The notes below the pieces were generated by a model, which saw only the letters and a program-made list of their open reading frames with translations, was not told the origin of the DNA and did not search any database. Shown in pieces: positions 37,505-41,203 of a DNA stretch of 46,488 bases. Position 1 is the first letter of the stretch; the number at the start of each line of letters is the position of its first letter. The position numbers and the translations under genes were made by a program. The stretch is from Solobacterium sp. (GTDB taxonomy: Bacteria > Bacillota_I > Bacilli_A > Erysipelotrichales > Erysipelotrichaceae), in assembly GCA_017469885.1 (NCBI GenBank), contig JAFUFO010000035.1, positions 1-46,488 of the forward strand, written 5' to 3'.

Positions 37505-37891
37505 TCAACGCAGTGATTCGGATACGATTGCGGCCGCATTCCGCACACAGTCATCGCAGGAACAGATCATCGTCCCCGTATCAATTCCCTTGAGATCCCG
37601 GCAGATAGATGCGCCGCAGCGGGAGGTGAATTCCGCATGAATCGCTGCGGCATCTTTCAGGATCGGTTTTCCTTCATATTTCATCAGCCCCAGCAGCATC
37701 TCTGCCGCACATAAGGCGCCGCAGGTCGCATTCATTGCGCCCATGCCGGCGCAGAATGCCGCCCCGAGTCTTTTCAGGGTCTCTTCATCCAGCCTGCTCT
37801 CCTTAGCAAATGCACATAGTACAGACTGGGCGCAGTTATAGCCGCTGTGTTTCAGGATAACCGCACGTTCACTTCTGTTCTGTTCACTCAT
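37505..37891 (-). CDS. C_GCAxxG_C_C family redox-type protein
   Basis: The 128 residues carry the cysteine pattern of the C_GCAxxG_C_C family: GYNCAQSVLCAF near the start, a central FCAGMGAMNATCGALCAAEM, and CGASICRDL followed by CSCDDCVRNAA. Members are thought to bind a metal or act in redox reactions, but the function is unproven. It has its own promoter (37918-37946) and precedes the patatin operon by 71 bases without an obvious terminator, so some read-through is possible. Confidence 0.9.
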   Translation of the reverse strand: MSEQNRSERAVILKHSGYNCAQSVLCAFAKESRLDEETLKRLGAAFCAGMGAMNATCGALCAAEMLLGLMKYEGKPILKDAAAIHAEFTSRCGASICRDLKGIDTGTMICSCDDCVRNAAAIVSESLR

Positions 37892-38007: not shown

Positions 38008-38880
38008 TCAGTCGATAACGCCGCCCTCAACGACAAGATCATCCGCATTGGAATCTGCGCCATATACTTCACGCAGGGTTGCCTCATAATCCGCATGGAA
38101 GAACTGTTCTTCTCCGAGCGTCTTGATCTCATCATTCAGCCAGTTCAGCAGCGTTTCATTTTCCTTGGCAACTGCCGGTGCGATGGAATCAACATCACCG
38201 AGTGCCGCAACATTAACGACAAAGCCCGGATTGACGGAAGCCCATGCGAGCACTTCAGTGTTGTCCGTAGAGAGACCTGCGCCGCGGCCATCGAGCAGTG
38301 CGTTGTATGCGTCCGCATACGCATCATACTTCTGCAGTGTCACATCCGGATGATTGGATTCGAAATAGGTTTCTGCGGTTGTTCCCTTGGCAATGATCAG
38401 TTCCTTGCCGGTGCCTTCGAGATCACTGACATCATTGATCGGGTCTTTTTCAGACGAAACGATACCGAGCTGTACCTTCATGTACGGCAGTGCGAAGTCC
38501 ACCTTCTCTGCACGTTCCGGCGTCACGGTGAAGTTGGCAAGAACGATGTCCACCTTTCCGGTCTCCGCAAATTCGACACGGTTTGCCGGATCCAGGGAAA
38601 CATATTCCACCTTCGTACCAAGATCCTGTCCGATGCGTTCTGCGAAGTAAACATCGTAGCCGGCATAGTTTCCGTTTTCATCGACATAGCCAAACGGAGC
38701 CTTGTCGGAGAAGACGCCGATTTTTACCGTTCCGCTTTCCCTGATTTCATCCAGCGTGCGGTAAACGGTCTTTCCGGCAGATTCGCCGGAGCCGGAAGCA
38801 GTGCTGCCGGAGGATGCACCGCATCCTGCGGTAAGTGTGAGTGCAAGGATTGTCAGAAACAGTGATTTTACGTTTTTCAT
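38008..38880 (-). CDS. Amino-acid (probably cysteine) ABC transporter binding lipoprotein
   Basis: The lipobox LTAGC places lipidated Cys20 after a 19-residue signal peptide, so the protein is anchored outside the membrane. The solute-binding domain is family 3 (polar amino acids): FGYVDENGNYAGYDVYFAERI, DPANRVEFAETGKVDIVLANFTVTPERAEKVDFALPYMKV. The stretch around NRVEF and ANFTVTPER closely resembles CjaA/Cj0982-type cysteine-binding receptors. The cysteine-codon leader at the start of the operon supports the same substrate. It is the last gene, before a strong terminator. Substrate assignment is inference from two independent hints. Confidence 0.93.
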   Translation of the reverse strand: MKNVKSLFLTILALTLTAGCGASSGSTASGSGESAGKTVYRTLDEIRESGTVKIGVFSDKAPFGYVDENGNYAGYDVYFAERIGQDLGTKVEYVSLDPANRVEFAETGKVDIVLANFTVTPERAEKVDFALPYMKVQLGIVSSEKDPINDVSDLEGTGKELIIAKGTTAETYFESNHPDVTLQKYDAYADAYNALLDGRGAGLSTDNTEVLAWASVNPGFVVNVAALGDVDSIAPAVAKENETLLNWLNDEIKTLGEEQFFHADYEATLREVYGADSNADDLVVEGGVID

Positions 38881-38904: not shown

Positions 38905-39660
38905 TCAGGCTTTTTTCTCAAACGTGAATGTCTTGAGGAACTGCTTTGCACGTTCCGTTGATGGATGTTCGAAGAAGGTTTCCGGATCGGTTTCCTCGAC
39001 GATGACACCGCCGTCAATAAAGACGATACGGTCTGCGACAGCACGGGCAAAGTTCATTTCATGGGTGACGATTACCATCGTCATCCCCTGTTCTGCCAGC
39101 GTCAGCATGACATCAAGAACTTCCCGTACCATTTCCGGGTCAAGCGCAGCGGTCACTTCATCAAACAGCATGACCTCCGGATGCATGGCCAGCGCCCGCA
39201 CAATGGCGACACGCTGTTTCTGTCCGCCGCTGAGCTGCCGGGGATATGCGGTCCGCTTATCCAGCAGTCCGACACGTTCCAGCAGTCGTTCCGCTTCGGC
39301 CTGTGCCTGTTCCTTCGGAACCTTCTGGACCTGAACCGGCGCCAGTGTGATGTTGTCCTGAATCGTAAGGTGCGGAAACAGTTCATAGCTCTGGAATACC
39401 ATGCCGATGCGCTGACGGAGCGCCGTCATATTCGCGCCGTTCTTTGTGATTTTCTCTCCGTCGAGTGTAATGGATCCGCTCTGGTATTCTTCCAGGCCGT
39501 TCATACATCGAAGCAGTGTGGACTTTCCGCATCCGGATGGTCCAAGCACCACGACCACCTCCCCTTTATGGATATCCAGAGAGATTCCGTTGAGCACTTC
39601 GGATGTGCCCTCATAGGATTTCACAAGATCCTTTACGGAAAGCAGAATTTCATCTGTCAT
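38905..39660 (-). CDS. Amino-acid ABC transporter ATPase (GlnQ type)
   Basis: The cytoplasmic ATPase subunit of the importer. Walker A is GPSGCGKST, the signature is [16 protein letters not shown], Walker B is [14 protein letters not shown] and the switch histidine is in VTHEMNFA. The 251 residues match polar amino-acid ATPases. GGAGG lies nine bases before the ATG. It is encoded between the second permease (six-base gap) and the binding protein (24-base gap). Confidence 0.95.
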
Positions 39661-39666
39661 CTTCCG

Positions 39667-40341
39667 TTACCTCCATTTCCGTTCCAGTCGGCCGGCAAGT
39701 GTTGAAATCGGCCAGCATACCAGAAAGTAAAGAACAAATACAGCACCGTACACCCAGAGGGCTCCGGTCGGATACTGCATGCGGTTGGCATCGATGATCT
39801 GCTGGCCTGTCTTCAGCACTTCCACCATTCCGATGATTTCGACAAGCGAGGTTGTCTTGATCATACGGGTAATCAGATTGATCGACGGAGCGATCAGACG
39901 GCGAACCGTCTGCGGCAGAATGACGAACCGGAAGATCTGCTGTTTTGTCATGCCAAGCGCTGCAGCGCTTTCATACTGGTGATTGGGAATCGAGACGATT
40001 GCGCCTCTTACCAGATCACCCATCTCTGCCGTTCCCCAGAGCGTAAAGACGATGATTGCGCTCGACCAGGCGGACAGCGAGATCTGCCATTGCCGTGTGA
40101 CACCGAAGTAAACGAGAAACAGAAGCACCAGCTGCGGCATGATCCGGATGAAATTCAGATACAGCCAGCAGAATGCCTGTACGAAACGGTTCTTGACCGT
40201 CATCAGCATTCCGAACAGTGTTCCGAAGATAAATGAAAGTCCGACCGAGATCAGGGAAATCTGAAGCGTTACCCAGAGTCCCTGCAGTAAGCGCAGAAAG
40301 TTGATTCCGCGGAACAGAATGCTAAGCCCCGTATCCTGCAT
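39667..40341 (-). CDS. Amino-acid ABC transporter permease (second)
   Basis: A HisM/GlnP-type permease with about five helices. The family EAA-like loop is visible as YESAAALGMTKQQIFRFVILPQTVRRLIAP. The frame opens at 40362, but ATG 40341 has AAAGGAGG seven bases upstream, giving 224 residues. It overlaps the preceding permease by 20 bases. Two different permeases in one operon suggest a heterodimeric membrane channel. Confidence 0.93.
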   Translation of the reverse strand: MQDTGLSILFRGINFLRLLQGLWVTLQISLISVGLSFIFGTLFGMLMTVKNRFVQAFCWLYLNFIRIMPQLVLLFLVYFGVTRQWQISLSAWSSAIIVFTLWGTAEMGDLVRGAIVSIPNHQYESAAALGMTKQQIFRFVILPQTVRRLIAPSINLITRMIKTTSLVEIIGMVEVLKTGQQIIDANRMQYPTGALWVYGAVFVLYFLVCWPISTLAGRLERKWR

Positions 40342-40981
40342 AACGGATCCTCCTTTCCGCATACGATGCCAGTAAGGACACCGGCAGAAGAATCAGAAGA
40401 TAGAAGACCACCAGCATGAACAGCGCTTCACTGGTGTTGTAATCATTGCCGATCAGATCCTTGGCCACATACATCAGATCTGCCAGGGCGATTGCGGAGA
40501 CAACCGACGTTTCCTTGATCAGGAAGACGACGTTTGCGGCAATTGCGGGAAGCGCAACGGCCATCGCCTGTGGAAATACCACGAACCGCATTACCTGGAA
40601 GCGGTTCATGCCGAGGCTTATCGCAGATTCGGTCTGGATCACATCCACCGCTTCAAGACCGGAGCGCATCGCTTCTGCCATATAGCTTCCGCCAAGGAAT
40701 ACCAGTGCCGCAACAGCACATACTTCCCGGCTCCAGGACAGGCCGATTTTCGGCAGTCCGAAGTAGATGAAGAACAGCTGTACCAGCATCGGTGTATTCC
40801 GGCTGAGCTCAATATATCCTTTTGCGATCTGACGCAGTACCGGTACCCGGTAATACTGCACATAGCTGCACACCAGCCCGACCAGCAGGGACAGAATGAT
40901 TCCCGCCAGACTGATCTTTATCGTGACCAGTGCTCCCTGCACAAACAGCGGAAGATATTCCAGCAATATATCTACGGACAA
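40322..40981 (-). CDS. Amino-acid ABC transporter permease (first)
   Basis: A second HisM-type permease of 219 residues, with SLGMNRFQVMRFVVFPQAMAVALPAI as the ATPase-contact loop and GYIELSRNTPMLVQLFFIYFG near the N-terminal half. The start is TTG at 40981, supported by AAAGGAG eight bases upstream; the nearby ATG in another frame stops after five codons. It is the first structural gene after the attenuator leader, whose terminator ends about 30 bases before it. Confidence 0.92.
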   Translation of the reverse strand: MSVDILLEYLPLFVQGALVTIKISLAGIILSLLVGLVCSYVQYYRVPVLRQIAKGYIELSRNTPMLVQLFFIYFGLPKIGLSWSREVCAVAALVFLGGSYMAEAMRSGLEAVDVIQTESAISLGMNRFQVMRFVVFPQAMAVALPAIAANVVFLIKETSVVSAIALADLMYVAKDLIGNDYNTSEALFMLVVFYLLILLPVSLLASYAERRIRYAGYGA

Positions 40982-41010: not shown

Positions 41011-41038
41011 AAAATAAAACGGGCACACATGCGCCCGT
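41011..41038 (-). terminator. Leader terminator (attenuator) before the ABC operon
   Basis: On the minus strand ACGGGC pairs with GCCCGT around GCATGTGT, followed by TTTTATTTT. It lies between the promoter and the first transporter gene, so it must be passed for expression. It overlaps the CGCATG segment used in the proposed antiterminator. Confidence 0.82.
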
Positions 41039-41085
41039 AACTCTCAGTTCCAAACCGTTGAGGTTCAGTTTGTTCCGACCGCATG
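41028..41085 (-). promoter_or_regulatory. Proposed antiterminator pairing
   Basis: CATGCG (minus 41085-41080, inside leader codons 22-23) can pair with CGCATG (minus 41033-41028) in the terminator hairpin. Inside this, AACC (41065-41062) can pair with GGTT (41056-41053). The pairing removes bases from the 5' side and loop of the terminator. A ribosome at the leader stop codon would cover the CATGCG segment and prevent it. The pairings are visible in the sequence; the mechanism is inference. Confidence 0.5.
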
Positions 41086-41148
41086 GAAAACAGACTCATT
41101 TCGAATCATAGAACAGCAGGAACAGATACAACTGTTAATGTGTCTCAT
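41065..41148 (-). CDS. Cysteine-rich 27-residue leader peptide
   Basis: The frame starts at ATG 41148 with AAGGGAG five bases upstream and ends at TGA 41065. The peptide begins MRHINSCICSCCSM, with cysteines at 7, 9, 11 and 12, then becomes ordinary. It lies about 20 bases after the predicted transcription start and is followed by an intrinsic terminator 27 bases later, with no other gene before the ABC importer. This is the layout of a ribosome-mediated attenuator, in which scarcity of charged tRNA-Cys stalls the ribosome on the Cys codons. The peptide itself probably has no other function. Confidence 0.72.
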   Translation of the reverse strand: MRHINSCICSCCSMIRNESVFHAVGTN

Positions 41149-41173
41149 ACGGTCTCCCTTTTCTATAAAAAAT

Positions 41174-41203
41174 GTTTTATCACCGCCCTGCGTGCAGTGT
41201 CAA
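41174..41203 (-). promoter_or_regulatory. Promoter of the cysteine-type ABC operon
   Basis: A perfect TTGACA (41198-41203), an 18-base spacer and TAAAAC with an extended TG (TGATAAAAC, 41174-41182) on the minus strand. The start point is expected near 41167. Confidence 0.75.

Follow-up and report, generated by a model that had tools for sequence, protein, structure and literature searches.

The leader upstream of an amino-acid ABC importer operon in Solobacterium sp. very probably acts as a transcription attenuator of the classical, ribosome-mediated type, one that senses the charging of Cys-tRNA and controls the import of L-cysteine, as judged from sequence comparison and RNA folding models. 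The leader lies in a stretch of 46,488 nucleotides, hereafter called the window. A first-pass annotation of this DNA had already interpreted the region as a cysteine attenuator, an interpretation supported by the conservation of the Cys codons, the pairing between leader and terminator across lineages, and the lack of a T-box.

The whole device runs on the minus strand, from position 41203 to position 41011 of the window, a strand that the first-pass annotation had not given; on re-reading of the sequence, the positions and codon numbers that it gives are all correct, as are its complementary hexamers. The device comprises (i) a promoter (41174-41203) with a TTGACA box (41203-41198), an 18-nt spacer, and the extended -10 element TGATAAAAC, in which the -10 box TAAAAC (41179-41174) is preceded by a TG extension (TG-n-TAAAAC); (ii) a ribosome binding site, AAGGGAG (41154-41160), located 5 nt 5' of the ATG; (iii) a leader ORF of 27 codons, MRHINSCICSCCSMIRNESVFHAVGTN (41065-41148), with Cys codons at positions 7, 9, 11, and 12 and a TGA stop codon at 41067-41065; and (iv) an intrinsic terminator, ACGGGCGC-ATGT-GTGCCCGT (41038-41019; 41011-41038 including the T-rich tail). 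The promoter and the frame with its four Cys codons thus stand where they had been annotated, as does the terminator between the leader and the first importer gene. A promoter of the same TTGACA and TG-N-TAAAAC-like type is also present in L009, L002, L010, and L011. One terminator was found at the leader against 0.3 expected from shuffled sequences, and the overall folding energy of the whole leader is not unusual (z about -1.2). Folding of the plus strand of the region was uninformative.

Three short segments of this leader, all on the minus strand, are capable of alternative pairing. Element 1, GACCGTATG (41146-41154), overlaps the leader start codon and forms 9 bp with element 2, CATGCGGTC (41077-41085), which spans codons 22-24, is invariant in the close leaders, and would serve as the antiterminator strand; its partner, element 3 (CGCATG, 41028-41033), occupies the upper 5' arm and the loop of the terminator. 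Codons 22-23 contain CATGCG and the terminator contains CGCATG; their complementarity, already noticed by the first-pass annotation, holds, the duplex between the leader and the terminator 5' arm reaching -17.5 kcal/mol compared with -9.8 kcal/mol in shuffles (p=0.003). The element 1:2 duplex, GACCGUAUG:CAUGCGGUC, comprises 9 bp at -12.9 kcal/mol, with no difference among the five closest leaders. The competing pairing proposed earlier, TGTTCC with GGAACA, can indeed form in L009 and L002 as well as in the window; it is weaker (-6.3 kcal/mol) and less conserved than the pairing at the start codon.

According to the proposed mechanism, transcription would start about 20 nt before the leader ORF. 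As long as cysteine is plentiful, the leading ribosome would pass the four Cys codons and reach the stop codon, covering element 2 (CAUGCGGUC in the RNA) and leaving element 3 free, so that the terminator would form. When Cys-tRNA is short, the ribosome would halt at the Cys codons with element 2 exposed, and the pairing of element 2 with element 3 (CGCAUG, at the top of the terminator) would delay the terminator and let the polymerase enter the importer genes. Element 1 may take element 2 instead and, being transcribed first, might capture it first, an event that would probably restore termination on an untranslated leader. The trp, his, and leu attenuators of Proteobacteria combine leader codons, competing hairpins, and a terminator, with the position of the ribosome deciding the outcome; the proposed device follows the same four-part logic but differs in that element 1 of the window overlaps the leader start codon, not the regulatory codons. 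The predicted element 1 of L071 and L022 does include Cys codons.

The pairing between leader and terminator extends well beyond the window. It is lengthened to 7 bp in L002 (element 2:3) and comprises 10 consecutive pairs in L012, 16 in L003 (with G-U pairs), and 11 in both L022 and L075, the sequences being unrelated between groups. Over 18 lineages, picked to drop close duplicates and not fully independent, the complementarity between leader and terminator gives a Fisher combined p of 6e-7, and the rival duplex between the upstream part and this same region gives 2e-5; a simple duplex test disclosed no significant leader-terminator pairing in L015, L037, L089, and L023. For covariation, one of the checks suggested with the original proposal, the outcome is favourable in that the pairing is kept by differing sequences across lineages; little covariation appears within the close clade, because the pairing elements are nearly invariant in its five leaders.

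Folding models in which the ribosome position is varied agree with the mechanism on the nascent RNA. When the RNA is folded up to the terminator loop, the probability of the element 2:3 pairing, P(2:3), is 0.82-0.99 for a ribosome halted on any of the Cys codons and drops to 0.00 once it sits at the stop codon, the latter in line with the annotated idea that a terminating ribosome covers CATGCG and lets the terminator form. Folding of the nascent RNA without a ribosome also favours the 2:3 pairing, which renders the untranslated state ambiguous. Sequestration of the terminator 5' arm, expressed as Cys stall minus stop, is 0.29 versus 0.09 in shuffles across the 18 partly dependent lineages (Fisher 6e-5); for the window by itself, the nascent model falls short of significance (p=0.164). 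At equilibrium, the complete terminator of the window has a probability of 0.93-0.97 in every ribosome state, and of 0.96-0.97 in a second folding model. The annotated idea that a stall at the Cys codons leaves CATGCG free to break the terminator is in line with the nascent folding, but at equilibrium the complete terminator wins regardless, so antitermination in the window would have to be kinetic. Equilibrium shifts with ribosome position are predicted in L002, L011, L012, L003, L022, L075, L058, L094, and L037 when only the downstream RNA is folded, and the shift in L002 is absent once the upstream RNA may also pair.

The recurrence of the leader was assessed in homologous loci gathered through the permease, not through the leader, and divided into two sets, 13 at the level of the Erysipelotrichaceae and 77 others. 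A uniform criterion was applied to both, namely an ORF of 8-45 codons led by a ribosome binding site, containing 4 or more Cys within 8 residues, and located in the 400 nt upstream of the permease. Such Cys-cluster leaders precede the orthologous permease in 8/13 loci of the first set and 11/77 of the second, compared with 0.07 expected in each set from dinucleotide shuffles and 0 on the opposite strand; other residues show no comparable excess, the runner-up being Ile (9 vs 1.43 in the 77-locus set). Inspection by eye, with shorter Cys runs admitted, raises the number to 10 of the 13 Erysipelotrichaceae-level loci and leaves L016, L004, and L017 without a Cys leader. The nearest named relative of the locus, L018, a Solobacterium MAG from cattle duodenum (Erysipelotrichaceae), carries a permease 96% identical to that of the window. 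Cys leaders are also found upstream of the permease in many Lachnospiraceae and other Clostridia, and in L076 and L084 they stand before operons in which the gene of the substrate-binding protein (SBP) comes first. The leader and flanks of L072, a MAG labelled Paenibacillaceae, are near-identical to those of Lacrimispora xylanisolvens (L067), which makes a mislabelling probable. The conservation of the leader in relatives, the accompanying statistics, and the placement of the frame after a promoter and before the first gene leave a negligible probability that a random Cys-rich frame happens to lie beside the terminator of the upstream HAD-family gene, common as terminators are after upstream genes.

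The terminator recurs together with the ORF. A uniform scan of 1.59 Mb around the loci found 34 qualifying ORFs, 20 of which lie at most 420 nt 5' of the permease, and a terminator follows the ORF in 20/20 of these permease-proximal cases; seven of the remaining ORFs are also followed by a terminator, six of them farther 5' of the importer and in its orientation. Separately, among 25 leaders examined at these loci, all 25 display an intrinsic terminator with a T-rich tail, 11-68 nt beyond the stop codon. This regularity, together with a complementarity to the leader that exceeds shuffles, makes it very unlikely that the hairpin is incidental and that the leader acts by translation coupling or Rho-dependent termination, as mycobacterial poly-Cys leaders do or are proposed to do (PMC1262725, PMC13236596). 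An ordinary small Cys-rich gene with its own terminator, encoding a metal-binding or RiPP-like peptide unrelated to importer control, would also place a terminator directly 3' of the ORF, and Cys-rich small peptides exist; nevertheless, ten leader peptides tested gave no Pfam or NCBIfam match of note, and position, Cys enrichment, and pairing recur before the same operon in distant families and also before cysK and metY, which makes such a gene extremely unlikely.

Comparison of the leaders themselves indicates what is conserved in the proposed attenuator. In the five closest leaders, the peptides diverge between the start and the tail except for Cys, but three RNA blocks stay constant: one at the start codon (GACCGTATG), one shortly before the ORF ends (CATGCGGTCGGAA), and one within the terminator (ACGGG(C/T)GCATG). 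Distant leaders, such as MTAYRMIHNTCSNACCCCCEKSSASLCCAHCLL (L012), MKKFLMSCCCGCCCEMYDGTSLCSALIRRN (L014), and MTFRSNRNMNTCCCCCCCMACHRASLMCVEFHPGR (L077), are unrelated in peptide save for Cys, and the Cys cluster differs among lineages both in size, with 2 to 7 or more codons, and in position. The Cys codons, whose loss from homologous leaders would have spoken against the first-pass annotation, are thus kept while the remaining peptide is not, and selection appears to act on these codons rather than on the peptide sequence, a pattern more readily explained by a sensor of tRNA charging than by an arrest peptide acting on its own ribosome. An arrest of the latter kind, in which a leader peptide with bound thiol or cysteine stalls the ribosome in the manner of TnaC or SpeFL, could draw on the short HAVG tail common to the five close leaders; the tail, however, coincides with the RNA pairing element, the peptides share nothing but Cys across lineages, and the Cys clusters vary in length and position, making such an arrest very improbable.

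The operon downstream of the leader, annotated earlier as an amino-acid ABC importer, is confirmed as such, with cysteine as its most likely substrate. On the minus strand, it comprises (i) an amino-acid ABC permease (BPD_transp_1) with a TTG start as the first structural gene (40322-40981); (ii) a second ABC permease (39667-40362); (iii) a TcyN/GlnQ-like ABC ATPase (38905-39660); and (iv) a family 3 substrate-binding protein (38008-38880). The closest solved relatives of the binding protein are the L-cysteine receptors 1xt8 (4e-75), which we take to be the Campylobacter protein, and 2yjp (3e-71), with the next structure far behind (5.5e-36). Binding proteins of similar kind from Campylobacter jejuni and Neisseria gonorrhoeae copurify with cysteine and bind it selectively (PMC7373191), and 2YJP corresponds to NGO2014, an L-cysteine receptor (PMC7170509). 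The importer substrate is therefore most likely cysteine itself, a reading drawn from these matches since the importer proteins reach no NCBIfam equivalog cut-off. A gene for a redox-type protein with a C_GCAxxG_C_C motif lies 3' of the importer operon on the same strand (37505-37891).

T-boxes are the textbook mode of regulation in Bacillota, as is CymR where cysteine is concerned; to our knowledge, leader-peptide attenuators in this phylum are rare in the literature. The absence of a T-box motif from the leader, as annotated, was confirmed by an Rfam search of the window, which disclosed no T-box or other regulatory RNA at the operon, either at the gathering threshold or up to E=1, and the same holds for the importer operon in the 33 related loci scanned. 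The genome of the window (2.66 Mb, 49 contigs, 95.7% complete) carries 22 T-box matches elsewhere, one of them before another amino-acid ABC importer (L098, C20:60293-60505), so one genome would regulate related importers by a T-box in one case and by a leader peptide in the other; no T-box was found at cysS or directly before cysK. No CymR-type (Rrf2) protein exceeds the cut-off in this 95.7% complete assembly, and the ACCTA-n-TAGGT palindrome is absent from the window promoter. In L012, L003, L022, and L075, this palindrome (ACCTATTGACA-n-TAGGT) lies on the -35 box, resembling an Rrf2-type operator, and a repressor may act there in addition; it is also present in the promoters of L136 and L137.

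Attenuators based on Cys codons are already known, although the open-licence papers searched yielded none described for cysteine in Bacillota or ahead of an L-cysteine importer. A close parallel is the uORFC-8-2 motif preceding cysS in Rhodobacterales, in which an intrinsic terminator follows a short uORF carrying tandem Cys codons, and for which ribosome-mediated attenuation by Cys-tRNA has been proposed (PMC8632094). It differs in phylum, in the gene (cysteinyl-tRNA synthetase), and in having two Cys codons within a conserved RNA structure; the Bacillota leaders, compared by description, contain 2-7 or more Cys codons and precede importer, cysK, and metY genes. The cys/cbs operons of Actinobacteria carry poly-Cys leaders with no conserved or obvious terminator (PMC1262725), and mycobacteria reportedly use leaderless poly-Cys ORFs for translation attenuation (Canestrari 2020, PMC8764745, cited in PMC13236596). 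These leaders share with the Solobacterium leader a run of Cys codons in a short leader ORF and, as proposed for the latter, cysteine-responsive attenuation; the Solobacterium leader, by contrast, is an ORF led by a ribosome binding site with an intrinsic terminator and an antiterminator. In bacilli, histidine leader peptides precede hisS*/hisZ (PMC2965389), likewise a regular leader peptide replacing a T-box in Firmicutes, with a different amino acid and different genes. A recurrent cysteine attenuator in gut anaerobes would explain the control of cysteine uptake without CymR and would make it easy to read the charging of Cys-tRNA inside the cell; the named genomes with the leader include Anaerocolumna, Lacrimispora, Clostridium porci, and Gemmiger. 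With one logic realized in so many versions, the rules by which attenuators evolve can be put to the test.

Leaders sensing Cys-tRNA are likely a widespread device of the cysteine regulon in anaerobic Bacillota, including Erysipelotrichaceae, Lachnospiraceae, Oscillospiraceae, and others, where they would control L-cysteine import together with cysK and metY, preserving the antiterminator logic while the sequences change and operating partly alongside an Rrf2-type operator in the promoter. A Cys leader with a terminator stands before cysK in L024 (3340-5000), where the next gene is of Rrf2 type (CymR-like), and before metY, encoding O-acetylhomoserine sulfhydrylase, in L035 (3461-4964) and L026 (2251-3865), all identified by reading translations; the device may thus serve a wider cysteine regulon. 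In the genome of the window, no Cys leader precedes cysS or stands directly before cysK, and metY has one weak Cys-ended ORF upstream, without a strong terminator (L118, 2495-2560). The upstream regions of metY were compared in L134, L135, L136, L137, L118, L121, L122, L126, L128, L129, and L130. Within the genus, some of these leaders carry a CCRMLxSRA-like motif, mostly with a terminator-like hairpin, and those nearer the genome of the window have short upstream ORFs ending in RM or CRMCRC with no strong terminator. The hexamer CGAATG recurs upstream of the metY genes of the same genus.
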